Assembly (NCBI GenBank): GCA_013215465.1
Contig: JABSOW010000004.1
Coordinates: forward strand, 186,001-250,000
Source: Colwellia sp.
GTDB taxonomy: Bacteria > Pseudomonadota > Gammaproteobacteria > Enterobacterales > Alteromonadaceae
Length of the DNA: 64,000 bases
Direction: 5' to 3'
The notes under the pieces were generated by a model. The model did not search any database, was not told the DNA's origin, and saw nothing but the letters and a program-made list of their open reading frames with translations. Below, one piece after another: positions 14,821 through 63,264 of the stretch. Made by a program: the position numbers and the translations under genes. The number at the start of each line of letters is the position of its first letter. Positions within the stretch are counted from its first letter, which is position 1.

Positions 14821-14861
14821 AACAAGTAACAAGTAACAAGTAACAAGTAACAAGTAACAAG
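14821..14861. repeat. 7-bp tandem repeat (AACAAGT)x5.9
   Basis: Read directly: aacaagtaacaagtaacaagtaacaagtaacaagtaacaag. Confidence 0.95.
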
Positions 14862-19564: not shown

Positions 19565-19595
19565 TATGTTGGTATGTTGGTATGTTGGTATGTTG
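19565..19595. repeat. 8-bp tandem repeat (TATGTTGG)x3.9
   Basis: Read directly from sequence. Confidence 0.95.
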
Positions 19596-41141: not shown

Positions 41142-41199
41142 TAGTGACGAGTAAACGAGTGACGAGTAAACGAGTGACGAGTAAACGAGTGACGAAAAC
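41142..41199. repeat. 15-bp tandem repeat (GAGTGACGAGTAAAC)x3.9
   Basis: Read directly from sequence. Confidence 0.95.
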
Positions 41200-52876: not shown

Positions 52877-55800
52877 CTAATGTACTTCTCTCTGATAAAT
52901 AATTCTGTCATTACCACGAAATAGTCCAAAAGTAGCGGTGCTCGTTGGGTTTTCATTAAACTCTTTTGCATTAACACCATTCCAACTCCAGTCGTACTGC
53001 AACCAAGCAGGCACAGTATAGATGATTTTCACTTTTCCTTGATTACCAGCACCTGTTGCATTCAAATATAAGGCATTTATTTCACCATCACTAAACATTC
53101 CTGTTGCAGGTGAGCCATCATAACCATTAGGAGCAAGACTAATGCTTAATAAAGTTAAGCCATTTTTATTGTAGTTTGTACAGTTATCTAAAGTATTAGT
53201 AATGAAATTACTACCATCGTAATATTGAACAGCCATGGGCACAGGTAAATCACTAGTTTCAGGGCCGAATGCATTTTTAACAGCCCATCGGCCAAAGCGA
53301 AGGTTCACGCCTGTTGGTGAAACTAAATCTGATGAAGGACTTACATTTAAAGCAACACTAGCATTAACGCTATCGGAGTCTTGAATTTTATCAATAATAA
53401 TATTGTAATCTACCTGAAAAGGCTTAACCATTGAGTTTGAATTTTTTGTATACGTAAAAGTGTCATCTTCATCAAAGGTATATTTTAATACCCCTGCCGA
53501 GTCTTTTTCCAAACCACCCACATTAGGAGAAGCTGAAACAACCATTTTGCTAGCATCATCAGCACCGTCAATAGTGGAATCTATAAGCGGAAAGGTACGA
53601 TCAATATTAGTTGCGACTAATTTTTGATAGCCTATTTCTGTATAGTTTTTAGTTGTTATTCCTGATTTGTTTTTTGCAGTGATCAATAATTTAGGGGGAT
53701 TTAAGTAGGTAAATGGTTGCCCGATATAAGTAAAGTCTGATGTACCTGTAGTGCACGTATCAGCAAAAGCATTACTGGTGATGTCCACATCAAAGTGATC
53801 TGGAATAAAGCGACCAACCGTACTATAACTAGCTGAGTTTATCGGGTTACCCAAATAATTAGTATCTTGAGCCGCAAGGTTTATAATACCAACTTCGCTA
53901 TACTTACCATTAAAATTAACGGTAGTTTGATTAGCGTCTGCCCATGTTGTCGTTACAAGGTTTGTAGCACCAACATCAACACTTCCTATGGTCAATGTAC
54001 CTGTATTGGTAATTGGCTCTTTTTGTTGAACAGATAATTGCAATACGCTATTCGACTGAGGTGAATAATTAGGAGTAGGATCACCATTTTGACATTGTGC
54101 TATGATGTTTATCGGGAAGTTTTCTCCTGCGACTTGGGTTATAACACCATCACTATCTGTAGATGTTAATGCAGTAGAAACAACTAATTTTGTCGGATAA
54201 AACTCTTTACTTAATGTCGCTGAATTAACTCCTGATGAAACCAGCTCTGAAACTGAAAAACTAAGCTCGCCAGCATCATGGTACTGTATAGCAAGAGTCG
54301 CCTCACCATCACCATTAAAAGTTACCGACCTAGTTTGACTCACTCCTGTTGCTAACATATTAGTGATACCCAACGTTGGTACTTTTGTACCCGTACTAGG
54401 ATTTTGGTAATTAAAGACAAAATTCAGTGATTGGCTCCCAGTAAAAGCAGGGGCACAACTAACACCATTATCACTTAATTTAACCGCTCTTATTAACAAT
54501 AATTTTGTTAAATCACAAGATTCAACATCATTAGCACCATTAATTTCAAGTACAAAACCAGCCTCAACAAAATTTAGATCACAACTTGAACCACCACTAG
54601 TATTTACACAAACCAAGGCGTTACCAGGTGTGATTGTTGGGTTAGTCACTGATAAGGTTAGCGTTTCAACTATGATATGATTAACGTTAACCGTAGTAGA
54701 GCCAGTAAAAGTTGGCGAGCTAATCGTCGCACCATCTGCTTGAAAATCTAAGTTTACCGGCTCAGTACTCAAGGTTAAACAATCACTCGTGGCACAGGCC
54801 TCAATAGTTACTGACTCTCCTTCACAGGTTAGCCCTTGGCCATTATGAGTTATTTTAAAATGATCTATTTGTGAGGGGCCGACACAATCTCCAAATTTTA
54901 CCTTACCGCTGAGAGCACCGTGTTTTAAAATTTCATAACTAGAAGTGCGAGACGCGGAATAAGTACGGATGTCATTTGCAATAGATATTTCAAAAAAGTC
55001 GCCACCACCACGTTCAAAAAATATCGCTGTTATGTCGAAGACAGAGTCTTGATTTAAGGTAAAAGATCCTCCTGTATTTGAATTGGCGGTTGGGGTTTCA
55101 AACCTTAATTCATTACTACCACCGCTAGTTGAGCCGCCAAACTTATTGAATAAAACAGTGTCACCAGACAGCGTATCCATGATAAAACTAAAACCGTCAT
55201 CACTTTCAACATAAATGGTGTAATCGCCTGCAGGTAAACTGAGCGTACCTGATGCATGCACTAAAAAATCTTCACCACTTACACCAGTACTGGGGTAAGG
55301 TAGTGTGCCTGAAAAGTCGTGATCAGAGCCACCAAAATCTATGCGGTCAACTGTACTTGAACCACTGGCAACAACATTATATGTACCACCATTTATTAAA
55401 CCAAACACAGGCGAACCTGCAGCAAGCCACGCATCATAAATGGTTAGTGCTTCCGTTGTAGTGTTTATTTGAGAGTTACTACCACCACCGCCAATTCTAA
55501 TACCCACGGCATATAGTGTACCGGCTTCACAGTTATTATCACACCTTACCTCATCACGAGAGCTACCATCATAATTATTGTCAGCTAATTCATTTTGGTA
55601 AATGGTATCTATATGACGACTAGAAAGCCTAACCTTGTAAATTTTGAATTCATCTAACTTACCCTCAAAACCTTGCTCATCTGAAAAATCACCACCAAAT
55701 GCATCTTGTTCTTGGCCAATAACAATTGCGTTACTCTTAGGTACGTATAAAACGCCGCTATCAACACCGTCATTACAGCCTTGCTCTTTGCCATCAACAA

Positions 55801-57781
55801 ATAAACACACATCTTCGCCTACTCGAGTCAGGGCAATATGATGCCAAGTACCGTCAGTGAGCTTAATATTACTTGTTAGCGTTTCGCTATTATCTCTGAC
55901 TTTGATATATACTTGATTGCCCCCTTTCAGAAATATTTCGAGTTCGTCATCACTAGCACTATCGCCCAAAGCATGAAAAACTTCCTGTTGGTCTTTATTT
56001 ACTAAGGTATTAACCCAAAAACTAACCGTAAAGTCATCCAAGCCATCCACAACAGCCCTTGGTACAGTAAGCCAGTCATCAATGCCTGTAGCAGTTAAAT
56101 CTATTGAGTTATTAATAACAACATCATTCACTGGATCAGGTACACCATAGGTTTTACCATGATTAGTGCCTATTTGATCAAGAACCTTACCACTAGAGCC
56201 ATTGTAGCTACATTCATCAAAACGATAATCAACAATAGGTAATGGCATCCCGCAAATGACAGTATCGCGACTTGTCCCATCATAATTTAAACCAATATCT
56301 TGGTTATAATAAATTTCGCTAATTTGTCCGGTAGAAATTGCCTTATCAAAAATTAAGACTTCATCAATTAAGCCTTCAAAAGCTTGACTCGACACAAAAT
56401 CACCACCAACACTGTTTTGTTCTTGACCTAATAATAAACTTTGAATATTTAAAGCATAGGATGATTGTGTTACACACCCTTGTAACAATTTATCTCGATA
56501 TAAGCAGCTTTGTGAACCTTTACGTGTCCAAACTAAATGGTGCCAATTATTATCTGCAATTGATTCTGTCGCTCTGCCTCCGTTAGAGCTACCTTTTAAA
56601 TAAGGCCTAAAAACCTTATGGTTATCAAACCACATGATTAACTCATTATCCCTAAAAGAACTAGCTCCCGAAACTAAGCTTTGATTAGATTTTTTTGCTG
56701 TTTTAGCCCATAAAGATACGGTAAAATCAGACTTTCCTGATAAAACCCTTTTATCTAAAATAACATAATCATCAATACCACTAGCCGAAAGATCTACTGC
56801 ATGACAGATTTTACCGGCTATGGGCTGAGCATTTTTTGCTTGCCCATGATAATCACCGATAGTATCAATAACTTCATCTGCAACATCATGATATTCAATT
56901 TCATCAAAGCGATATTCGGCAATAGGCGCAGCAGCGCCACTACAAAGATCACCAAAATCTGCTTGTAAATTGGCATAAGTAACCTTTGCACCATTTTTAA
57001 GTTTCAACTCACCAATAGACGAAATAGCCCCAAAAACGTGAGAGCTACCCCCTTTAATTTCAACCTTACTCTGAGAATAAATATAACCAGCATAGGTAGC
57101 GCCACTTTGAATTTTAATTGTGGATTTTTGATCAGCAAAAAGATAAACAATAAGCTTTCGTGGATCTCCTGATAATCCTCCGTTAATAACTGCAGATTCT
57201 TTAAAGTTAGCTTTATTTTTAACAAAAAGTCGTACATAGCCAGGACCAATAACAATTAGTTTACTAGAGCTCTTCACTTCAATGTTGTCAAAATAGTAAT
57301 CACCGGCAGTTAAGTAAACAGTTGAAGTTTCTTTGAGTTTAAGTGTCTTGAAACGGTAAGTAGAAAAGCGATTAGACATAGTTAAACTACCGCCTAATTT
57401 AACTTCAACATCTTTATAATTATTTGTTGTTATTGTTTGTGAACCGTTATTCACGGTTAAATTAGTGTTTGAACTATAGCTGAGATAACTAGCTGATAGC
57501 GCTGGAATAATAAAACCACCGGGTTTGCAGTTAGTTGTTTGGCAGCTCAAAGATGTATTTTTATGCTCGATAAATGTTGTCGCTAAAATTTTATCTGGAT
57601 TATTTAACAGTTGAGAAGAGTTTTCAAATTTAATTTTTCCGTTTGCATGACTATTAGTTAAGCCATCTGCAAACGTTGCCGAGCATTGCGCTGCTTCAAC
57701 TGAAACTAAAAAAGTAAGATAAAGAAAAACACCAAAGTAAAGGCGAATGAACATCAACAAATTCCTCGCAGTTACCTGCAT
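52877..57781 (-). CDS. mshQ: Large MshQ-like secreted protein: polymer-forming N-terminus, two LamG domains, PA14-like region, DUF6701 C-terminus
   Basis: 1634 aa with signal peptide; tandem YRFDE...DDFTVSFWVNT LamG units; GDYTIYVESDDGFSFIMD; C-terminus TATFGLFRGNDRIIYQREVH; located between mreB and msh genes. Confidence 0.85.
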   Translation of the reverse strand: MQVTARNLLMFIRLYFGVFLYLTFLVSVEAAQCSATFADGLTNSHANGKIKFENSSQLLNNPDKILATTFIEHKNTSLSCQTTNCKPGGFIIPALSASYLSYSSNTNLTVNNGSQTITTNNYKDVEVKLGGSLTMSNRFSTYRFKTLKLKETSTVYLTAGDYYFDNIEVKSSSKLIVIGPGYVRLFVKNKANFKESAVINGGLSGDPRKLIVYLFADQKSTIKIQSGATYAGYIYSQSKVEIKGGSSHVFGAISSIGELKLKNGAKVTYANLQADFGDLCSGAAAPIAEYRFDEIEYHDVADEVIDTIGDYHGQAKNAQPIAGKICHAVDLSASGIDDYVILDKRVLSGKSDFTVSLWAKTAKKSNQSLVSGASSFRDNELIMWFDNHKVFRPYLKGSSNGGRATESIADNNWHHLVWTRKGSQSCLYRDKLLQGCVTQSSYALNIQSLLLGQEQNSVGGDFVSSQAFEGLIDEVLIFDKAISTGQISEIYYNQDIGLNYDGTSRDTVICGMPLPIVDYRFDECSYNGSSGKVLDQIGTNHGKTYGVPDPVNDVVINNSIDLTATGIDDWLTVPRAVVDGLDDFTVSFWVNTLVNKDQQEVFHALGDSASDDELEIFLKGGNQVYIKVRDNSETLTSNIKLTDGTWHHIALTRVGEDVCLFVDGKEQGCNDGVDSGVLYVPKSNAIVIGQEQDAFGGDFSDEQGFEGKLDEFKIYKVRLSSRHIDTIYQNELADNNYDGSSRDEVRCDNNCEAGTLYAVGIRIGGGGSNSQINTTTEALTIYDAWLAAGSPVFGLINGGTYNVVASGSSTVDRIDFGGSDHDFSGTLPYPSTGVSGEDFLVHASGTLSLPAGDYTIYVESDDGFSFIMDTLSGDTVLFNKFGGSTSGGSNELRFETPTANSNTGGSFTLNQDSVFDITAIFFERGGGDFFEISIANDIRTYSASRTSSYEILKHGALSGKVKFGDCVGPSQIDHFKITHNGQGLTCEGESVTIEACATSDCLTLSTEPVNLDFQADGATISSPTFTGSTTVNVNHIIVETLTLSVTNPTITPGNALVCVNTSGGSSCDLNFVEAGFVLEINGANDVESCDLTKLLLIRAVKLSDNGVSCAPAFTGSQSLNFVFNYQNPSTGTKVPTLGITNMLATGVSQTRSVTFNGDGEATLAIQYHDAGELSFSVSELVSSGVNSATLSKEFYPTKLVVSTALTSTDSDGVITQVAGENFPINIIAQCQNGDPTPNYSPQSNSVLQLSVQQKEPITNTGTLTIGSVDVGATNLVTTTWADANQTTVNFNGKYSEVGIINLAAQDTNYLGNPINSASYSTVGRFIPDHFDVDITSNAFADTCTTGTSDFTYIGQPFTYLNPPKLLITAKNKSGITTKNYTEIGYQKLVATNIDRTFPLIDSTIDGADDASKMVVSASPNVGGLEKDSAGVLKYTFDEDDTFTYTKNSNSMVKPFQVDYNIIIDKIQDSDSVNASVALNVSPSSDLVSPTGVNLRFGRWAVKNAFGPETSDLPVPMAVQYYDGSNFITNTLDNCTNYNKNGLTLLSISLAPNGYDGSPATGMFSDGEINALYLNATGAGNQGKVKIIYTVPAWLQYDWSWNGVNAKEFNENPTSTATFGLFRGNDRIIYQREVH

Positions 57782-57883: not shown

Positions 57884-57908
57884 AAAAAACCCCGCCTTGG
57901 CGAGGTTT
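57884..57908 (-). terminator. Rho-independent terminator (AACCTCGCC-AA-GGCGGGGTTTTTT)
   Basis: Stem plus T-run on the minus strand, upstream of mshQ. Confidence 0.8.
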
Positions 57909-57939
57909 CTCGAGTATCTGAAGTTTGTCAAAGCGTAGC

Positions 57940-58529
57940 TTAGCTAAATAATCTTTTTTACTGACTAAAGCAATTAAGCCTAATGCAAAAATTATTAGTG
58001 TTGCAGGCTCTGGAACTTGAGAAAGGCGAACATAAAAAGTTTCTGCTGTATTTAAAAAATAATTAAAGGATCACTCTGAGCAATCCATTCACTGCTCGCT
58101 GTATTAAACTCAGAACTATCTACATAATCAAAATCAGAGTTGAAAAACTGTGCCGCTTGGATGATGCCATCATTGAGTGCGGTAAAGTGCTGAACTACGG
58201 TTAACTCAGTTCTTAGAATATGAAGTAAATCCTCAGTTGCAAATTGCCAATTCTTCTGTAATTCAGGTGCATACAAAGTATTAGTAATAGAATTACTAAT
58301 ATCATAATATTCTACATTAACAGGAGAAGCCCAATCATAGCCTTTATAATTAATGTAGTTGACACCTAATAAACTATCAACAAGTTCATCTTCTGCATTA
58401 GTATAATCATGTGCATCTAACTCAACTTGCGTTAAATTGATAATCAGCGTTGCATTGGAAAAAGAAACAAAATAAAATAAAGTAAAGTAAAGTAATACAC
58501 ATTAATATTTTAACTGTAAACTTAATCAT
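57940..58529 (-). pseudogene. PEP-CTERM sorting-domain protein gene, interrupted by three frame breaks
   Basis: MIKFTVKILMCITLLYFILFCFF / SNATLIINLTQVELDAHDYTNAEDELVDSLLGVNYINYKGYDWASPVNVEYYDISNSITNTLYAPELQKNWQF...SDPLIIF / NTAETFYVRLSQVPEPATLIIFALGLIALVSKK / RLFS*. Confidence 0.8.
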
Positions 58530-58689
58530 TAAAAACCTCGACGATAAATGAAAAGAGACATTACAACCACTACAAGGAAAAAAACACACCAACTTAATTA
58601 ACACTTTATTTTTCAATTAGTTAAAATAAATTTTATTTATCAAAAATATTATTTGTAAAAAAAACCGACAATAATATATCGGGAAACGG

Positions 58690-59121
58690 TTATAGTCTGC
58701 GCGCCTTAACTTCCAATACTCTTGTAGTTAACACACCACCAACTTCACACCGACCTGTGCTTGTTATTGTATAATATGTAACATCTAAAATCACGGACTC
58801 AGTACATCCTACATTTATTGCCTGGCAATTTTCCAAACCTTGAATAGCTGAAAAATCATAAAGAACTGGTGCCTTGCAGTCACCGTTTGCTGGCTCAAGA
58901 GGGAAAACTTCAACGAGTTTTCTTTGTAAACCCGATTGAGCCGCTTGATAAGCACGAATGCCTAACACTTCATAGACAACAGTTTCAGCACTAGAACTTA
59001 TCATTCTAACCAATGCAGTTCCTAACAAGGTCATTATTACAATAATAAAAACGGCAATAATTAAGGCACTACCTTGTTGATACTGATTAACGCCATTCGT
59101 TGGCATCACTTTAGGGTACAT
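58690..59121 (-). CDS. mshP: MSHA biogenesis protein MshP
   Basis: QQGSALIIAVFIIVIMTLLGTALVRMISSSAETVVYEVLGIRAYQAAQSG. Confidence 0.9.
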   Translation of the reverse strand: MYPKVMPTNGVNQYQQGSALIIAVFIIVIMTLLGTALVRMISSSAETVVYEVLGIRAYQAAQSGLQRKLVEVFPLEPANGDCKAPVLYDFSAIQGLENCQAINVGCTESVILDVTYYTITSTGRCEVGGVLTTRVLEVKARRL

Positions 59122-61576: not shown

Positions 61577-63264
61577 ATGTGGTCAGTTTATTCATATTTC
61601 AAATTTTTTCTTGTTAGCTATTTTTTAGTCGGCATGCATATTATTTTAGATACACCCGGTGGCACTGGCTTGTATCTATCCTTTAATACTATCGCTTGGT
61701 TATTTATTGTCACACTCGTTGCTTTAGGCCTATGGCAAATAACCCTAAATAAACGAATTTACTATAGCAAAATGCTTATATGACTATTGCTCGGCTATCT
61801 TTGCTTATTAACGCCAGTTTTTTACTCCTTTGAATTTACTGATCACGCTATTCCGCGCCTTTTAGCACTAATCGGCGGTTTGCTGTTGTTGTTTTGTTTA
61901 TATCAATTTCCAGTTAAGGAATCTGATAAATACCAGCTGCTGATAGTTATTTTAATTGCTGTTTCCTTAGAATCTTCGTTAGGACTGCTACAATACTTTT
62001 TCTTTGCCGAAGGTTTTTGGGGTGGTTATAAAGTAGGTGTTAGCAGACCACATGGCGTATTTTTACAACCTAATGTCATGGCCAGTTTTATGGCGACAGG
62101 GCTGGCTATTGCTCTTTTTATCTCAACTCGCTTTACCTTAGTTAAATCTCGTGTTGCTACTCCGCTAAAAGGGCTTATATATTTCACTTTATTTTCCACT
62201 AGCTTTTTATTAGTGATATTGCAATCAAGAACAGGGCATTTAAGTGCCTTATTAGTTTTAGCGCTTATATTCCCTTATTTATATAAAAAAAACAGCAAAC
62301 AATTAGCCCGCAACATTGCCATTATCACTCTCGCTGTTGTTATCGCCTTGATGAGTTTTGACGGTTCAGATGTTGCCAAACGGGGTGGTGATAATTATCA
62401 ATCCATTGGTTCTCGAAGTATTATCTTTGAAGTGAGCCTTGATATATTTAAAACTAAACCCTTGCTTGGTTATGGCTATGGCGGTTTTGAACGGAGTTTT
62501 ATTGATCATTTTAATCAATATACGATAGCACACCCCGAAGCGGGCAATACCATACAACGTTTATCTCACCCTCATAATGAATTGCTATTTTGGGTAATTG
62601 AAGGGGGAATAATAGCCTTGTTGGCTTTTATCTTATTCACCACCGCTTACATTACCACTTGGCTTAGCATTAGTAGAGGTAAAGCTTTCGCGTTATTTGC
62701 TTTACTATTGCCGATTTTACTACACAGTCACTGGAATTTCCGTTTTACAGCTCAGTAAGCCACTTGGTCATTTTTCTGTTAATACTTTGGTTAACGGATA
62801 CTGAAAATTCAAAAAACAGTTTATTTATCAACTGCACAAAAACGTTCTTAATCCGCTTTATTGCGCTATTAATTCCAACGATATTTATCCTTTTTTTAGC
62901 AACAAGCTTACACACCGCTAACATTTTAGTTGAGCATAAAAAAAACGGCTATCAATCAATAGAAAAACTGAATGATATAATCAACCCTATTGCTTGGCAA
63001 AATAGATTAGATGCGGCGGTTTATGCTCATATTTTAGTTTCAGGATTATTAGAAAAGAACAGTGAAAAATTAGAGTTGTATGTAGCTTGGGCTCAACAAA
63101 GAATAAAATACCTACCCAGAGATAGTATATATGCAAACCTACTTTTAGCACTTAAGATCTTAAACAAAGACACTGAGCATCAACAATTACTTAGAGAAGC
63201 CAAGCAAACTTACCCTCAAAGAGAAAACTGGCAAAGTAATGTTTATCACCAAAAAGATAAATAA
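61577..63264 (+). pseudogene. pglL: PglL/Wzy-type O-oligosaccharyltransferase, disrupted by in-frame TGA (61781-61783) and a frameshift near 62730
   Basis: Three consecutive ORFs (68+323+166 aa) form one protein; Wzy_C region PHGVFLQPNVMASFMATGLAIAL...YGYGGFERSF...HPHNELLFWVIEGG; the +3 frame at the break restores QSLEFPFYSSVSHLVIFLLILWL. Confidence 0.85.

Follow-up and report, generated by a model that had tools for sequence, protein, structure and literature searches.

The 64 kb stretch of Colwellia sp. DNA analysed here (the window) has, between a minor pilin gene and an adhesin gene of an MSHA pilus cluster, an interval in which the ORF list holds fragments of 74 aa and 64 aa only, and the question raised by this locus is whether these are pieces of one gene and, if so, what state that gene is in. 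The first-pass annotation had read them as a real PEP-CTERM gene hidden off-frame between mshP and mshQ, and had taken it to be either a phase-variable surface gene in an OFF state or a decaying gene. We argue that the feature is probably a conserved PEP-CTERM gene of the MSHA minor-pilin cluster of Colwelliaceae whose copy in this genome was inactivated recently.

The interval between mshP and mshQ

A minus-strand translation of positions 57900-58600 in three frames yields a signal peptide (MIKFTVKILMCITLLYF...) in frame 2, a body (SNATLIINL...SDPLIIF*) without a single in-frame stop in frame 0, a tag segment (NTAETFYVRLSQVPEPATLIIFALGLIALVSKK) in frame 2, the same as the signal peptide, and the stop after ...KRLFS in frame 1; owing to three breaks, signal peptide and tag are not joined in one reading frame. 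The tag, found at G000:C34:243963-244019 in the coordinates of the window's genome (G000, 4.68 Mb in 80 contigs, with the window on contig C34), exceeds the PF07589 cut-off of 20.7 bits, which places the product among PEP-CTERM proteins as defined by PF07589/TIGR02595, and together with the three-frame translation this bears out the hidden gene as real. The gene is taken to start with the ATG at 58528 and to end at the stop codon of the frame in which the orthologs are read (Table 1).

Table 1. Features of the MSHA locus in the window (positions are those of the window)
Feature	Position	Strand	Remarks
mshQ-like adhesin gene	52877..57781	-	intact; DUF6701, laminin-G/pentaxin domains
Hairpin with T tail 3' of the PEP-CTERM gene	57886..57911	-	likely terminator; z -4.3
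Broken MSHA-linked PEP-CTERM gene (pseudogene)	57940..58528	-	pieces in three frames; G018 ortholog uninterrupted
Break c, A6 run following the PEP-CTERM helix	57954..57959	-	shorter by one A than in G018 and G026
PEP-CTERM sorting motif and hydrophobic segment (VPEPATLIIFALGLIALV)	57963..58019	-	PF07589, 28.2 bits
Break b, T6 run	58054..58059	-	one T fewer than in G018; body frame ends at TAA
Break a, pentamer tract (TTTAC/TTTAT, imperfect) within the signal-peptide region	58465..58495	-	+10 bp relative to G018 and G026
Hairpin with T8 tail 3' of mshP	58665..58682	-	likely terminator; z -3.7
mshP-like minor pilin gene	58690..59121	-	intact
Broken PglL/Wzy_C O-oligosaccharyltransferase gene	61577..63264	+	one nonsense codon, one frameshift

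The state of the gene can be polarised by its relatives, the nearest ortholog being that of Colwellia sp. NORP29 (G018), which is 83% identical and has an uninterrupted 191-aa frame (MIKFTVKILVFFISLSFVSIANATLITNL...VPEPTTLMIFSLGLIALVSRKKLSS). In a nucleotide alignment of the window with G018 and G026 there are three out-of-frame differences, each at a simple repeat, and the remaining indels inside the gene are in-frame steps of 6 bp. These three differences fall at exactly the tracts to which the breaks had been assigned beforehand, and the alignment furthermore agrees that one T is missing at the T run and one A at the A run, the latter making the reading run beyond the stop of the orthologs. 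Break a had likewise been put in the right place, but its unit count did not hold: the one additional unit proposed at first also brings the reading in frame, but it is not the state of the relatives, relative to both of which the tract has gained two units.

The T-tailed hairpins that follow mshP and the PEP-CTERM gene (the latter with a counterpart at the same position in G018 and G026) suggest that the PEP-CTERM gene may form its own transcript, the first of them likely separating it from mshP as a terminator. The genome carries mshL, the MSHA secretin gene, on a different contig, and the MSHA machinery genes therefore lie apart from the minor-pilin cluster.

Intact relatives and their products

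A search of 36 genomes of the same genus and 24 of the same order returned close orthologs that are 56-83% identical and uninterrupted, and a profile scan of GTDB genomes picked out 22 clear relatives with E values no higher than 5e-9 (L103-L124). There are thus at least 22 intact orthologs of about 30-83% identity, mostly from Colwellia, Thalassotalea and Thalassomonas, with Thalassotalea sp. G2M2-11, Thalassomonas sp. RHCl1 and an uncultured Alteromonadaceae bacterium among the carriers outside Colwellia. Every one of the 22 is uninterrupted and sits inside the MSHA cluster beside mshP, flanked by mshO/mshP and, where the contig extends, by mshQ or mreB; signal peptide and tag are in a single reading frame, and PF07589/TIGR02595 matches the tag in 20 of them. 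The window copy shares this position beside mshP. Since all 22 orthologs are found there, the gene, although it has no name, is a conserved part of the family's MSHA locus and no oddity, and the original remark that a PEP-CTERM gene beside pilin genes is unusual therefore stands for the literature that we found but not for the bacterial family. A wider search of 296 genomes of the order added one case clearly linked to MSHA (G186, L134), in what seems to be the Thalassotalea genome of L110 again, and the weaker matches elsewhere lie outside MSHA clusters.

Within the genus the gene is patchily distributed. Among 35 genomes annotated around mshP, that is the window's and 34 others, 18 have it intact, one has it at a contig edge and one, the window's, has it broken; 14 have mshP followed by mshQ with no PEP-CTERM gene between, and in the one left the contig ends, so that the gene cannot be judged. 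Cultured strains with an intact gene are C. psychrerythraea ND2E and GAB14E and C. demingiae ACAM 459. A short contig binned as Alcanivoracaceae (NORP309, L121), which is possibly misbinned, has the PEP-CTERM gene within an MSHA segment like that of Colwellia.

The locus occurs in two ARRANGEMENTS, mshO-mshP-PEP-mshQ in one group and mshO-PEP-mshP-mshQ in the other, which the protein tree splits with one label change, at a weak branch support of 26. In G016 and G019 the interval between the PEP-CTERM gene and mshQ holds another mshP-like gene, or what is left of one at 72 aa (L071:8839-9057, L074:9347-9880), as would be expected if an incoming mshA-P cassette had replaced an older one, and this suggests that such a displacement may have taken place in these two genomes. 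In G018 a DDE transposase gene lies directly 3' of the PEP-CTERM gene (L069:119-1000), and in G026 (L070) mshQ is absent and mreB comes next.

Intact members of the family are about 180-230 aa long, with W65, N80, W91, N125, Y161, R163 and the PEP motif among the conserved positions. For the G018 ortholog, AlphaFold2 (mean pLDDT 80.6) predicts a domain at residues of about 55-165, mostly with high confidence. A fold search of the PDB with this model gave no meaningful match (best E 5.4, TM about 0.1), a profile search of PDB sequences returned nothing, and Pfam and NCBIfam run against the orthologs gave only the tag and weak matches centred on it, with no model covering the body. The motifs GWR-AT--EL and FYVR, which we took to resemble those of DUF1566/Lcl-type domains, were dropped as an assignment for want of tool support.

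The genome was also expected to hold an exosortase and other PEP-CTERM proteins, and it does: one exosortase was found (TIGR02602, 190.8 bits, in an uninterrupted 500-aa frame) as well as six other PEP-CTERM matches. Exosortase is nearly genus-wide (34 of 39 genomes), and its presence therefore does not track the PEP-CTERM gene; three carriers of the gene gave no exosortase match, namely G030, which is only 76% complete, G006 and G004. The intact gene of the relatives encodes a Sec-exported protein with a small folded domain and a C-terminal PEP-CTERM tag. Exosortase sorting as currently understood would cut this protein at the tag and anchor it to the cell surface. Its partners in the genome are two minor pilins, MshO and MshP, and MshQ, a large adhesin.

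Decay, sequencing error or switching

The window copy carries disabling changes where the 22 orthologs are uninterrupted, and it is thus the decaying-gene half of the initial either/or that has held up, in agreement with the fact that a PglL gene nearby is dead as well. This gene, which adjoins mshA and whose pieces contain the Pfam domains Wzy_C, PglL_A and Wzy_C_2, has a TGA in place of the Trp of its relatives and a change of frame near 62735. It is intact in several relatives (the G027 protein at 79-81% identity), absent from that place in G018 and G026, and the only other clearly broken gene noticed in the densely coding window. With this glycosylation gene next door lost as well, it seems that the locus is shedding accessory genes in the window lineage. 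In the PEP-CTERM gene slippage would have added two pentamer units and removed one base from each of two homopolymer runs, and because all three repeats are changed, no complete, sortable protein would come from a single frame.

The loss is probably recent, since the codons show past constraint: compared with G018 and counting in-frame codons only, dN/dS is 0.24 (bootstrap 0.13-0.44), and mshC, D, O and P give 0.09-0.23 in the same comparison. On the window branch replacement and silent changes stand at 9:8 versus 21:39 in the flanking msh genes, an excess of amino-acid changes that is not significant (p = 0.26). About 5% of random substitutions create a stop, and 17 branch changes without one are therefore not unusual (P 0.41). 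Branch counts and absent stops would thus fit a recent loss, short of proving it. What may be held against decay is that the body has no in-frame stop and that dN/dS is still low, and furthermore that all breaks are at repeats, as slippage-driven switching would also give.

The same low dN/dS and stop-free body could mean that the gene is intact in the cell, and that the two homopolymer losses or all three breaks are artefacts of sequencing or assembly, one-base losses in T6 and A6 runs being a typical type of error. We judge this unlikely from a homopolymer control in the 64 kb window and from the nonsense codon of PglL. In 48 intact window genes there are 117 homopolymers of at least six with zero visible frameshifts, and the difference between 2 of 2 and 0 of 117 has p = 1.4e-4 in a control biased toward intact genes, since these were the ones chosen. 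In addition, the pentamer change of +10 bp is not a homopolymer error and by itself breaks the frame, and the nonsense substitution in nearby PglL is likewise poorly explained in this way.

That the gene is phase-variable and was caught while OFF, with mispairing of slipped strands in the pentamer tract turning it on and off, is more improbable still, and as the main interpretation it was rejected. In Neisseria, phase variation of the opa genes depends on pentamer repeats located in the region of the signal peptide. The window tract is indeed real, lies in the signal-peptide region and differs from the relatives by whole units; it is the sole one of its kind in the window, was seen in 0 of 40 Markov simulations of the window, and belongs to a gene with a coding body that is still conserved. 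However, such a tract was found in none of the 22 intact orthologs, and it is imperfect, with non-uniform units of which only three exact ones stand in a row. Furthermore, any tract length that is in frame leads at most to a protein ending at SDPLIIF, ahead of the sorting tag, so that no change of tract units alone can switch the full-length frame of the window gene, given the two further frameshifts downstream; all three changes would have to revert. The death of PglL, for reasons unrelated to repeats, also counts against a switch. Recoding, by which the ribosome or the polymerase would slip on the T and A runs and so give the full-length protein, has a negligible claim, since such runs do occur at two of the breaks but three successive events would be required, no relative recodes here (all are in one frame) and transcriptional slippage usually takes runs longer than six.

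The window also has tandem repeats at 14821-14861, 19565-19595 and 41143-41195, which lie outside the main ORFs, have units of 7, 8 and 15 bp in 5.9, 3.9 and 3.5 copies, match at 100%, and are more likely than the pentamer tract to vary in length.

Relation to known sorting and pilus systems

With inactivation of the window copy as the preferred reading, the broken gene is itself a case of ordinary decay, and the more useful result is a PEP-CTERM family whose confirmed members are all MSHA-linked and nearly all from Colwelliaceae, which suggests that a type IV pilus locus can include an exosortase substrate. From position alone we infer that the protein may serve the MSHA pilus. It is conceivable, though on balance doubtful, that the intact family is a working MSHA part, an exosortase-sorted surface protein, encoded alongside minor pilins and the adhesin MshQ, by which the pilus or the complex at its tip is coupled to an envelope decorated by exosortase; if true, this would link two surface systems in a way not described in the papers found, and the cultured strains with an intact gene offer a clear test case.

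C. psychrerythraea 34H has been reported to contain one EpsH homologue along with 19 PEP-CTERM proteins, and the EpsH system was placed among exopolysaccharide genes (Haft et al. 2006, PMC1569441); a search of that text for pilin and type IV turned up nothing that connects PEP-CTERM proteins with a pilus operon. In the literature searched no paper relevantly ties PEP-CTERM proteins to the MSHA cluster or to minor pilins, and a PEP-CTERM family linking exosortase sorting to a pilus operon thus appears to be undescribed.

Substrates of the EpsH and XrtA exosortases have the same signal peptide, PEP motif, hydrophobic helix and basic tail as the present family, and the genome encodes an exosortase, but the gene is located in an MSHA pilus locus rather than among exopolysaccharide genes. 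To the flocculation-associated PEP-CTERM protein PepA (NF033554) there is a weak C-terminal similarity, with E 7e-6 for the window protein and 8e-8 at best among the orthologs, but at 26 bits the window protein is far under the 80-bit cut-off and no common body domain is shown. As in the opa genes of Neisseria, a pentamer tract lies at the start of a surface-protein gene and a gain of units shifts the frame; the window tract is however imperfect, short and not conserved, and is accompanied by additional inactivating frameshifts. From the MSHA pilins, finally, the family differs in kind: the product has an ordinary-looking signal peptide and a PEP-CTERM tag but no prepilin leader, and is not a pilin, yet in all 22 orthologs its gene lies within the type IV pilus cluster mshACDOPQ, next to mshP.
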